A stretch of 62,988 nt of DNA, taken from assembly GCA_944385475.1 (NCBI GenBank), contig CALWXJ010000001.1:1-62988 (forward strand). Direction: 5' to 3'. Positions 14,666 to 18,052 of this stretch are shown one piece after another (within the stretch, counting starts at the first letter, position 1; the number at the start of each line of letters is the position of its first letter). Both the position numbers and the translations under genes were made by a program. Below the pieces are notes generated by a model that was given only the letters and a program-made list of their open reading frames with translations, did not search any database and was not told where the DNA came from. The DNA is from an uncultured Oscillospiraceae bacterium. Lineage in GTDB: Bacteria; Bacillota; Clostridia; Oscillospirales; Oscillospiraceae.

Positions 14666-15085
14666 TTATTGCTCTCTCCGCTGTCTTTTTGCCAGCAGCA
14701 CTGCAGCCCCCAGGGCCACTGCCCCGTCCGCCAAATTGTACACATAGCGGCCCAGGGGCCCCGGCACCTTGGGAAAGCGCACATAATCCCTCACGCTGCC
14801 CCAGCGCAGGCGCTCTGCAAGATTGCTGGCTCCTCCCCCCAGCAGGATCCCCGCTGCCAGGGGGGCGTCCCTGCGGCGGCGCCACGCCCAGTATAGTCCT
14901 GCCGCGGAGGCCGCCATCACCCACTTCCGCTTCATCGGCAGGCCGAAGGCCGCCCCCGGGTTATCCACCCGGCCTATCCAGATCCGGCCCTTCCAGAAAA
15001 GCCGGGGCCGGGGATACGCCTCTGTCCGGCGGCGCAAAGCGCCGCAGGCGGCAAATACCCCCAAGGCTGTCAGCATGGTTTTCAT
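14666..15085 (-). CDS. Signal peptidase II-like membrane protein, divergent
   Basis: A 139-residue protein resembling LspA, the aspartic protease that cleaves lipoprotein signal peptides. The conserved NPGAAFGLP loop, a GGGASNLAERL segment, the SVRDYVRF segment with one catalytic Asp, and YNLAD with the second are all present. In typical LspA the ASN--ER part reads GN--DR, so Asp is replaced by Glu. The first membrane helix is short and poorly hydrophobic, and the protein is rather short for the family. It overlaps the stop of the upstream GTPase-RNase fusion by four bases (ATGA), so it is translationally coupled to it. It may be a working minor peptidase or an altered paralogue. Confidence 0.7.
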   Translation of the reverse strand: MKTMLTALGVFAACGALRRRTEAYPRPRLFWKGRIWIGRVDNPGAAFGLPMKRKWVMAASAAGLYWAWRRRRDAPLAAGILLGGGASNLAERLRWGSVRDYVRFPKVPGPLGRYVYNLADGAVALGAAVLLAKRQRREQ

Positions 15086-17769
15086 GTTGTCTCCTCCTGT
15101 TCTTCCCGGGCCCGCTCCATGGCGGAGCGGAGAGCCCCGTTCTGCCGGTCTTTTTCATTATGGGCCCGCAGGGTGCGCTCCATGGTTCCCAGCACCTGGT
15201 CCATCTCCTCCCGGAACTGGGAGGCGGAGATCCGCAGGGCCCCGTGGCCCAGGATGATCAGCTGCTCCGGTCCGTCAGAGGTGGCCACCTTCACCCGGTG
15301 GTCCCGGCCGATGGTATAGGTGGCCCGCTCGATATAGGCATCCGCCGTCTCCGCCTCTTTGGTGTAGACCACGCAGATGTTGTGATACCGCTCCACACTG
15401 CCCAGCCCCCCCTTGACCTTATAGGCGTCAAAGACCACGATCACCTGACAGCCCCGGCAGCCCTGGTAATTGCAAAGATCATCGCAGAGCTTTTTCCGGG
15501 CCGCATCCAGATTCTCCCGGGCAATGGCTTTGAGCTCTTCCCAGGCGAAGATGATGTTGTACCCGTCCACCAGCAAATACTCCTCCCCCGCCGGGGGGGC
15601 CATCACGCTCCGCCGCTCCCCCTCCGACTCCAAAGGCCTCCGGGGCGCCCTGGGGGGCGGGGGCGGGTCCCGGCGCTTGATGGGACCATACGTCCGCTCG
15701 AAAATGGCCATCAGCTCCTGCTCCTGTCCCAAGGTAGGGCGGGCCCCCCCGGAAGCGGCAGGGGCCGCCGGAGAGGCAGAATCCTCCTGCCGCGGACGCA
15801 GCACACAGGGCACATGGGCCCGCTGGGGCACCTGGTCCCAGGGCACGATCTCTCCGGAACCGTGGGTGCAGAATACGGAGCTGGAGGGGTTGTCCACATC
15901 CCCGGCAGGGTCATACCCCTCCAGCAGCGATACGATCTCCGGCCGGGGCGGGGCGGGAGAGTCTTCCTGGGTCTCGGGGCAGGGGAAATACCCCTTGGGC
16001 GTGCAGCTCAGCCGTCCCAGGCCCCGGGTATAGGCGCTCACCTCCTGGCCGTAGGAGCGCAAAAATGCCACCGGCGCCGCGCCGGTGAGGACCGTCATCT
16101 CCCCCTCCGTTTGGGGCGGGTCTGTCTTCCCTCCCATGCGCTGGAGGTCGCTCATGGCCCGTCCCACCTGAGGGGCAGGAACCTCCAGGCAAAAGTCATA
16201 CCACGGCTCCAGCAGCACGCAGCGGCCCTGCATCAGCCCTTGGCGCACCGCCCGATACGTGGCCTGGCGGAAGTCGCCCCCCTCTGTGTGCTTCACATGG
16301 GCCCGGCCCGCCACCAGGGTGATCTTCAAATCGGTGATGGGGGAGCCTGTCAGGACGCCGGGATGCTCCCGCTCCGCCAGATGGGTGAGGATCAGGCGCT
16401 GGTAGCTGCCGTCCAGCTGGTCCTCCGGGCAGGCGGTATCCAGCACGATGCCGCTTCCCCGGGGCAGCGGCTCCATCAAAAGATGCACCTCGGCATAGTG
16501 CCGCAGGGGCTCAAAATGGCCGATCCCCTCCACTGTCCGGGTGATGGTCTCCCGGTAGCAGATGGCCCCCTCCCCAAAGGAGATGTCCATTCCAAAGCGC
16601 TCTTTTACCATCCTCTGGAGGATCTCCATCTGCACGCTGCCCATCAGTTGGACAAAGATCTTGCGCAGATGTTCCTCCCACACCACGTGGAGCTGGGGAT
16701 CCTCCTCTTCCACCTGCCGCAGGCGGGAGAGGGCAATGGCGGGGTCCGTGCCGTCTGTGAGTTCCACCTGATAGGTCAAAACCGGCTCCAGCAGCGCTCC
16801 GGACCAGTCCTTTTCAAAGCCCAGCCCCTGGCCGGGAAAGGTATGGCTCAGGCCGGTCACTGCCACCACTGTGCCCGCCTGGGCCTCTTCCAGCAAGGCA
16901 AACTTGCTGGCGGAATATTGCCGCAGCTGGTCCGCCTTCTCCTCCCAGAGGGAAGTCCCCTCTCCGGAGGCAGGGCGGCGCAGGACATCCTTCACCCGCA
17001 GCGTCCCGCCGGTGACTTTCAAGTGGGTCAGCCTGGCGCCCTGGGCGTCCCGGGAGATCTTGAAGACCCGGGCCCCAAAGGCCTGCGGCCAGCTGGGGTG
17101 GGGTGCATAGCGGCCAATGCCCTCCATCAGCGCCTCCACCCCCTGCAGCTTCAAAGCAGAACCGAAATAGCAGGGAAACAGCTGCCGCCGTGCCACCAGC
17201 CGGGAAACCCCGTCGTCAGAGAGATCCCCGGTTTCCAGATACTGTTCCAGGGCCTCCTCATGGCACATGGCGGCCTCCTCCGCCCAAAGCTGCCGGGACT
17301 GGCCGAAGTCCACACAGCCTCCGGAGAGTTTTTGCCGCAGCTCCTCTAAAACAGCGGTCCGGTCCGACCCCGCCAGATCCATCTTATTGATAAATAAAAA
17401 CGTGGGCACCTCATAGCGCTGCAGCAGCTGCCACAGCGTACGGGTATGACTCTGGACGCCGTCGGTACCGCTGATCACCAATACGGCGCAATCCAGCACC
17501 CGCAGCACCCGTTCCGCCTCCGCGGAAAAATCCACGTGGCCGGGGGTGTCCACCACCGTCACCTGCCGCTGCCCCATGGGCAGCACCGCCTGCTTGGCAA
17601 AGATGGTAATGCCCCGCTGGCGCTCCATCTCCTCCGTGTCCAAAAAGGCGTCCCGGTGGTCCACCCGCCCCAGGCGGCGCAGCACGCCGCCGTGATAGAG
17701 CAGCGCCTCGGACAAGGTGGTCTTGCCCGCGTCCACATGGGCCAAAATCCCCATTACCAGTCGTTCCAT
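15082..17769 (-). CDS. TetM/EF-G-like ribosomal GTPase fused to Rae1/YacP NYN ribonuclease domain
   Basis: An 895-residue two-part protein. The N-terminal ~600 residues are a ribosomal-protection-type translational GTPase. G1 is AHVDAGKTTLSE near residue 10, G2 is RQRGITIF, G3 is DTPGHVDF, G4 is NKMD and G5 includes GSALK; EF-G-like domains II to V follow. A Pro/Ser-rich linker (about 610-728) leads to a C-terminal NYN domain (729-895) that closely follows Bacillus YacP/Rae1. It has LLVDGYNIIFAW, VIVVFDAYKVKGG, YTKEAETADAYIE and VATSDGPEQ, with acidic residues at 735, 781, 810 and 832. Rae1 is known as an A-site mRNA endonuclease. Tetracycline resistance is not implied by the resemblance to TetM. 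Confidence 0.92.
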   Translation of the reverse strand: MERLVMGILAHVDAGKTTLSEALLYHGGVLRRLGRVDHRDAFLDTEEMERQRGITIFAKQAVLPMGQRQVTVVDTPGHVDFSAEAERVLRVLDCAVLVISGTDGVQSHTRTLWQLLQRYEVPTFLFINKMDLAGSDRTAVLEELRQKLSGGCVDFGQSRQLWAEEAAMCHEEALEQYLETGDLSDDGVSRLVARRQLFPCYFGSALKLQGVEALMEGIGRYAPHPSWPQAFGARVFKISRDAQGARLTHLKVTGGTLRVKDVLRRPASGEGTSLWEEKADQLRQYSASKFALLEEAQAGTVVAVTGLSHTFPGQGLGFEKDWSGALLEPVLTYQVELTDGTDPAIALSRLRQVEEEDPQLHVVWEEHLRKIFVQLMGSVQMEILQRMVKERFGMDISFGEGAICYRETITRTVEGIGHFEPLRHYAEVHLLMEPLPRGSGIVLDTACPEDQLDGSYQRLILTHLAEREHPGVLTGSPITDLKITLVAGRAHVKHTEGGDFRQATYRAVRQGLMQGRCVLLEPWYDFCLEVPAPQVGRAMSDLQRMGGKTDPPQTEGEMTVLTGAAPVAFLRSYGQEVSAYTRGLGRLSCTPKGYFPCPETQEDSPAPPRPEIVSLLEGYDPAGDVDNPSSSVFCTHGSGEIVPWDQVPQRAHVPCVLRPRQEDSASPAAPAASGGARPTLGQEQELMAIFERTYGPIKRRDPPPPPRAPRRPLESEGERRSVMAPPAGEEYLLVDGYNIIFAWEELKAIARENLDAARKKLCDDLCNYQGCRGCQVIVVFDAYKVKGGLGSVERYHNICVVYTKEAETADAYIERATYTIGRDHRVKVATSDGPEQLIILGHGALRISASQFREEMDQVLGTMERTLRAHNEKDRQNGALRSAMERAREEQEETT

Positions 17770-17926: not shown

Positions 17927-17947
17927 AAGAGGGCCTGCCGCCCTCTT
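17927..17947. terminator. Terminator-like hairpin overlapping the megL promoter
   Basis: An 8-bp stem (AAGAGGGC and complement, CTGCC loop) is followed by T-rich sequence on both strands. It lies between divergent genes, where no transcript is obviously in need of ending. Confidence 0.55.
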
Positions 17948-17973: not shown

Positions 17974-18052
17974 GATTAAAAGTTATCAATTTTAATGATT
18001 ATCTTTTCCTTCCGTTTGTCAAAAAAGATTTTAAAGAAAGCAGGTATTCCAC

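Follow-up and report, generated by a model that had tools for sequence, protein, structure and literature searches.

A Tet/EF-G-type GTPase fused to a Rae1/YacP nuclease domain in Clostridia, a candidate ribosome-rescue or mRNA-surveillance factor

Fusions of a Tet-type translational GTPase to a YacP domain have already been described among the Tet proteins of ten Clostridiales species by Atkinson (2015; PMC4342817), with the suggestions of a ribonuclease (RNase)-based resistance and of cutting of ribosomal RNA (rRNA). For the nuclease part the closest described system is Rae1 (YacP) of Bacillus subtilis, a ribosomal A-site endonuclease whose loss suppresses an efp mutant (PMC6613710) and which is listed among the nucleases that cut an mRNA-filled A site, as is needed before transfer-messenger RNA (tmRNA) can enter (PMC12320835). 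Of its substrates, S1025 was the first to be characterised (PMC11780869). For the GTPase part it is TetM, in which Pro509 at the tip, together with Val510, overlaps the tetracycline site (PMC7456112). We analyzed a further such protein in a 62,988-nucleotide stretch from an uncultured Oscillospiraceae bacterium (assembly GCA_944385475.1, contig CALWXJ010000001.1, positions 1 to 62,988; hereafter the window), where a single open reading frame (ORF) with an ATG start at 15082..17769 of the minus strand encodes 895 amino acids (aa), and the plus-strand translation of the same interval is interrupted by stops.

The architecture is not new, and the window protein is another member of the fusions of Atkinson 2015, with the same domain make-up and the same host group (Clostridiales). 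The accessible portions of that paper emphasize antibiotic resistance and an ability to act as an rRNA RNase, and report neither a subfamily signature nor a loss of stand-alone Rae1; what is added here is the distribution of the fusion relative to stand-alone Rae1, trees of both domains that bear on a single origin, the invariance of the nuclease acidic residues, and the signature and C-terminal extension of the GTPase subfamily. The initial annotation of this DNA, which was made from the sequence alone, had known of no described function and had expected similar fusions in related genomes; the relatives were found, but both the architecture and a guess at its function had been published (PMC4342817). 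No experimental study of such a fusion was found in the searched literature, where most subscription papers were out of reach. We give roughly even odds (a probability of about 0.5) to a role of the fusion in ribosome rescue or mRNA surveillance, with the GTPase bringing the nuclease to ribosomes that have stalled.

The fusion protein compared with described factors

The 895-residue chain was found by Pfam to consist of an EF-G/Tet-type translational GTPase with domains I to V, followed by a C-terminal YacP/Rae1 NYN nuclease (Table 1), which bears out the claim that a complete GTPase and a Rae1/YacP NYN domain are joined in one protein. The NYN_YacP match scored 166.8 bits against a cut-off of 24.6, and the EF-G_D2 and EFG_III matches were slightly below their own cut-offs. 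The five G motifs, said to be all intact, were located in the sequence: G1 within GILAHVDAGKT (residues 7-17), G2 as GITI (53-56), G3 as DTPGH (74-78), G4 as NKMD (128-131) and G5 as GSALK (203-207). A chance frame, contamination or a mis-assembly is ruled out by the same fusion in 79 other named genome loci, with 53-67% identity. The NYN domain of the fusion is the sole match of its family in the window's genome (1.73 Mb, 86% complete by estimate), which also encodes two further EF-G domain IV proteins, with frame lengths of 706 and 700 aa.

When compared with B. subtilis Rae1/YacP (5mq8, 5mq9), the NYN domain aligned over 144 residues with an E-value of 4.8e-26, and the acidic residues 735, 781, 810 and 832, which had been reported to follow YacP, all align with its four aspartates. 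The difference is that YacP of B. subtilis is a separate protein (a 181-residue PDB chain), while here it forms the C-terminal domain of a GTPase. The GTPase resembles Tet(M) and Tet(O) (3j9y, 4v6v) in domains I to V, in the G motifs, in the absence of a G' domain and in the DFR that follows the domain IV tip; it differs from them, at 29-31% identity, in the tip itself, in a C-terminal extension and in the added NYN domain. Among NCBIfam models tet_protect scored best, at 398.4 bits against a cut-off of 775, and the EF-G model TIGR00484 gave 264 bits against 659. The best 50 Foldseek matches of the whole chain were EF-G/EF-2-type chains and are uninformative on the NYN domain and the extension. 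The description of the GTPase as TetM-like holds for its TetM/EF-G-type layout, whereas in the sense of drug protection it has weak support at best, given the Lys-His at the tip and the tet_protect score.

Conservation was measured in an alignment of the window fusion with its 79 nearest named relatives, a biased sample of 80 rows. Residues 735, 738, 781, 808, 810, 814, 832 and 836 were invariant in 80/80 fusions, as were the main residues of G1, G3 and G4 including the DTPGH histidine. Among 43 further fused rows, in which four genomes are counted twice, D735, N738 and D781 were present in 43/43 and D810 and D832 in 42/42, the remaining row ending at a contig end. The active-site acids were likewise conserved in all 17 stand-alone NYN rows that were aligned (of 27). 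As judged by sequence, both active sites, of the GTPase and of the nuclease, are intact and conserved.

The AlphaFold2 model of the fusion had a mean predicted local distance difference test (pLDDT) of 86.8 and a predicted template modelling score (pTM) of 0.68. The extension and the NYN domain were well modelled, two runs (661-680 and 696-724), separated by a helix at 681-694, had pLDDT below 50, and the model gives no readable placement of the NYN domain relative to the GTPase. A Pro/Ser-rich linker of about 120 residues that would let the nuclease swing had been proposed; the segment is indeed rich in proline (15 P and 5 S in the 78 residues of the true linker), but it is not one flexible tether, since about 602-652 is an ordered, conserved extension and the linker contains the helix. 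Linker length varied from 66 to 112 residues across the 80 fusions. The roughly 49 residues modelled as disordered would permit the NYN domain to reach the A site in most models, so that a failure to reach it, offered earlier as a ground for rejecting the idea, is a weak one.

The fusion in place of stand-alone Rae1, and its descent

The distribution of the NYN domain was examined in 297 genomes of the window's order, in 393 genomes of the class and in a draw of 398 genomes of the phylum; the matches listed were the best ~150 places each for GTPase and NYN in the class and for NYN in the phylum. In the order, a NYN_YacP match was present in 120/297 genomes and the best match lay in a frame of at least 800 aa in 115 of the 120, the other five frames (160, 269, 462, 465 and 478 aa) being split or reaching a contig end. 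The frames of G173 (478 aa) and G183 (462 aa) extend back to about the contig start, G135 has both domains in a cut frame, G234 is split over two frames, and in G099, which is unclassifiable, the contig stops just short of the NYN domain. No clear stand-alone NYN copy was seen in the order's 297 genomes.

In the class, 250/393 genomes had a NYN match, and the best 150 rows comprised 65 in frames of at most 216 aa, 80 in frames of at least 800 aa and 5 between. More than one match was found in only 5 of the 250 genomes: G567 alone holds both the fusion and a stand-alone copy in intact form, the second match of G413, G464 and G496 is below the family cut-off, and G647 carries the fusion together with the decayed remains of a stand-alone yacP, interrupted by an internal stop (L204, contig 56), which is consistent with replacement of stand-alone yacP by the fusion. 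In the phylum draw a NYN match was present in 219/398 genomes, and each of the 28 genomes with a GTPase frame of at least 800 aa had exactly one. The check suggested in the initial annotation, whether stand-alone yacP is absent where the fusion exists, was thus answered in the affirmative for nearly every genome, with G567 as the one exception among the 250 NYN-bearing class genomes. The fusion was found in members of the Oscillospiraceae, Acutalibacteraceae, Butyricicoccaceae and Lachnospiraceae; the nearest relatives of the window fusion are Oscillibacter and Flavonifractor records, the Monoglobus copy sits on a record labelled plasmid, and many fusion-bearing Clostridia come from animal guts according to their records.

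Unfused relatives of the GTPase were searched for with window residues 1-650 (E <= 1e-90) in the 393 class genomes. A match was found in 165 of them, and among the matches listed at least 19 genomes had an unfused 645-671-aa frame without NYN; frames ending early (554-678 aa) in G462, G339 and G521 were left unclassed. The phylum draw added five more full-length unfused GTPases, and one partial protein (G968) was left out of the resulting 24. The unfused GTPases are 38-49% identical to the window protein. A separate NYN match is held by 17/24 of these genomes (13/19 in the class and 4/5 in the phylum), a raw genome count that ignores kinship. A further unfused GTPase, annotated as tetracycline resistance, lies beside an rpsN gene on Ligilactobacillus salivarius plasmid pR1 (L145, 3986-5920).

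Fused and unfused proteins have a common signature. The tip KHTxGGDFR was present in 80/80 fusions of the alignment and in 10/10 long fused rows outside it; in the 25 unfused rows (L145, L149-L172), HTxGGD was found in 25/25, KHTxGGD(F/L) in 22/25 and the extension motif FCxxG in 24/25. TetM and TetO carry YYSPVSTPADFR at this position in the alignment, where TetM Ser508-Pro509-Val510 aligns with xKH such that Pro509 corresponds to Lys493 and Val510 to His494. The unfused proteins end directly after the C-terminal extension, without NYN, and because they share the extension as their end it is regarded as part of the GTPase, the real linker being residues 653-729. FCxHG in the extension occurred in 80/80 rows of the alignment yet in only 5/10 long fused rows outside it, and its histidine is therefore not taken as a signature. 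On this sequence evidence the GTPase is a distinct subfamily, of which unfused forms exist too. In addition, five weaker matches of the phylum draw stop at about residue 597-599. Four were fetched: L173 has a divergent extension, and L174, L175 and L176, from three phylum genomes, have none and form a further Tet-like GTPase group of 651-659 aa with the tip HTHPxDF.

In the GTPase tree (68 rows), 34/34 fused rows fell in one clade with a Shimodaira-Hasegawa-like approximate likelihood-ratio (SH-aLRT) support of 100, with the L. salivarius protein as the only unfused row among them and the other 24 unfused rows outside. In the NYN tree (63 rows), one branch divides 36 fused from 27 stand-alone rows with a support of 85, a value by which the division is neither shown nor rejected. 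Both trees were built by a quick method with no bootstraps and leave many inner branches unresolved, and the GTPase tree was flagged for long rows and uneven composition, which makes the placement of L. salivarius unsure. Both domain trees fit what would be the simplest account, in which the domains fused once, the L. salivarius protein lost its NYN domain, and the fused lineages gave up stand-alone Rae1. Adjoining the fused clade in the NYN tree is the stand-alone NYN of G497 (L059 / L202), a 173-aa protein with no GTPase match in the 19 kb around it and a GTPase match elsewhere in the genome, which may represent a form that predates the fusion or the product of a later split.

A proposed role in ribosome rescue or mRNA surveillance

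That a fusion with a translational GTPase replaces Rae1 across a large Clostridia clade points to a loader that helps Rae1 into the A site. For the fusion, ribosome binding and GTP use are expected from membership in the GTPase family and RNase activity is predicted from the intact NYN site, and by analogy with Rae1 the substrate would be mRNA in the A site. In the proposed mechanism, the GTP-bound GTPase would first dock at the factor site of a ribosome with an empty or blocked A site, domain IV entering the decoding centre as in TetM and EF-G. GTP hydrolysis would then lead domain IV to withdraw or shift, upon which the NYN domain, held at high local concentration by the ordered extension and the 78-residue helix-containing linker, could enter the A site and cut the mRNA as B. 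subtilis Rae1 does. The truncated complex would finally become a substrate for tmRNA, which was detected in the window's genome with 142 bits.

A more specific and more tentative version is a GTP-clocked A-site nuclease, in which the GTPase recognises stalled ribosomes and empties the decoding centre, and the tethered Rae1 takes over the site once GTP is hydrolysed. The fusion would then be a bacterial single-protein counterpart to eukaryotic GTPase-assisted no-go decay. The unfused GTPase with a separate Rae1 would be the ancestral two-protein form, in which case Rae1 of other Bacillota may also have a GTPase loader.

Several observations weigh against rescue or surveillance as the function. 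Domain IV and the NYN domain would compete for one A site, which leaves the order of events a guess. The window's genome also encodes a Smr-domain protein in an 800-aa frame, a length that presumably matches the collision factor MutS2, and the rescue job may thus fall to another nuclease. Seven of the 24 genomes with an unfused GTPase (G057, G097, G324, G321, G349, G363 and G1011) have no NYN match, and G968 likewise, from which it follows that the GTPase must have a job independent of Rae1; conversely, many genomes carry a stand-alone NYN but lack this kind of GTPase, and the L. salivarius protein groups inside the fused clade yet is without NYN. Ribosome binding, GTP hydrolysis and RNA cleavage are reported for no fusion in the searched literature. 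Finally, no widely conserved neighbour tying the fusion to rescue was found in 87 loci, nor any for the unfused form in 24 loci, which suggests that the protein works with no constant partner in an operon.

These separate occurrences of the two domains, together with the varying linker length, also favour the alternative of mere linkage, in which GTPase and Rae1 act on ribosomes independently, the fusion only sets their expression at one to one, and GTP does not gate the nuclease. We regard this as rather unlikely, since the fusion spans four families with almost no stand-alone Rae1 alongside, and since a helix motif recurs within the linker in most of the fusions.

Drug protection, in which the factor would shield the ribosome from tetracycline or another A-site drug and the NYN domain would add RNase-based resistance as put forward in PMC4342817, agrees with the domain make-up of ribosomal protection proteins without G', with tet_protect being the best-scoring NCBIfam model and with the annotation of the L. 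salivarius copy. It is nevertheless improbable, given a score about half of the tet_protect cut-off, the low identity to TetM/TetO, the replacement of Ser508-Pro509-Val510 by xKH, and the presence of the fusion in a large share of the order's genomes. The tip argument against drug displacement is not decisive, as Tet(M) variants altered at S508, P509 and V510 can still function (PMC4750697). Given the distinct subfamily, a KHTxGGDFR tip in place of Ser-Pro-Val, the unfused relatives and the ordered extension, a housekeeping role is more likely for the protein than one in tetracycline resistance. Some annotated tetracycline-resistance proteins, such as the unfused L. salivarius copy, may accordingly have a housekeeping role too, a point of relevance to surveys of resistance genes.

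It is also improbable that the target of the NYN domain on the ribosome is rRNA or tRNA (for subunit inactivation, quality control or maturation) instead of mRNA, because the structurally known protein nearest to this domain, YacP/Rae1, is reported to cut mRNA in the A site and the neighbour genes vary, even though rRNA cutting was suggested in PMC4342817, PIN-like proteins have roles that include rRNA maturation (PMC11346440), and three loci chosen by eye have a TrmO, Dus or HIGH_NTase1 match as next gene.

The proposed chemistry is plausible. Because the fusion is widespread, apparently arose once and is hardly ever accompanied by stand-alone Rae1, it is a good target for a decisive experiment, and whether a GTPase loads the nuclease is testable with one purified protein.

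Feature coordinates, neighbouring genes and upstream region

Table 1. Features of the fusion gene and the adjoining gene, in window coordinates
Feature	Position	Strand	Evidence
Whole gene, GTPase-NYN fusion, 895 aa	15082..17769	minus	ORF, Pfam
G domain, residues 4-223, G1-G5 intact, without the G' insert of aligned EF-G rows	17101..17760	minus	Pfam GTP_EFTU, motifs, alignment
Domain II, residues 232-310	16840..17076	minus	Pfam EF-G_D2, 25.3 bits (cut-off 27)
Domain III, residues 328-399	16573..16788	minus	Pfam EFG_III, 26.3 bits (cut-off 27)
Domain IV, residues 402-515	16225..16566	minus	Pfam EFG_IV
Domain IV tip KHTEGGDFR, residues 493-501, subfamily signature	16267..16293	minus	Alignments with fusions and with TetM/TetO/EF-G
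Domain V, residues 518-601	15967..16218	minus	Pfam EFG_C
Extension at the C-terminal end of the GTPase subfamily, residues 602-652, shared by unfused relatives	15814..15966	minus	Alignments, structure model
Insertion DSPAPPRPE of the window protein, residues 603-611, gapped in 33 other fused and 25 unfused aligned rows	15937..15963	minus	Alignment
Linker, residues 653-729, low confidence at 661-680 and 696-724	15583..15813	minus	80-row alignment, structure model
Linker helix, residues 681-694, ELxxIFxxTYG-type motif in 64/80 fusions	15688..15729	minus	80-row alignment, structure model
NYN_YacP nuclease domain, residues 732-882, D735/D781/D810/D832	15124..15576	minus	Pfam, alignments
Short signal-peptidase-II-like gene downstream, 139 aa, 4-nucleotide overlap with fusion gene	14666..15085	minus	ORF, Pfam

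A signal-peptidase-II-like (lspA-like) protein was found near the fusion in 7/87 loci, all of them from near relatives of Oscillibacter type, and this neighbour is probably not part of the function of the fusion. In other lineages, the gene just after the fusion is a TrmO, Dus or HIGH_NTase1 match in three of four loci that were picked by eye and scanned (L071:8622-9302, L101:8749-9762 and L112:8580-9737), an observation to which no statistic is attached; all three are families of the tRNA-modification type.

The gene upstream of the fusion is divergent. A scan of the window at Rfam gathering scores returned no match. The minus strand has a promoter-like site (17995-18022) followed, about 160-180 nucleotides before the fusion start codon, by a terminator-like hairpin (17927-17947). 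Such a hairpin was present in 16/71 upstream regions in comparison to 2.2 expected from simple letter shuffles; an attenuator is not claimed, because the hairpins differ in position and some of them may terminate genes lying upstream, and in the window the segment 17927-18022 could be an attenuator leader.

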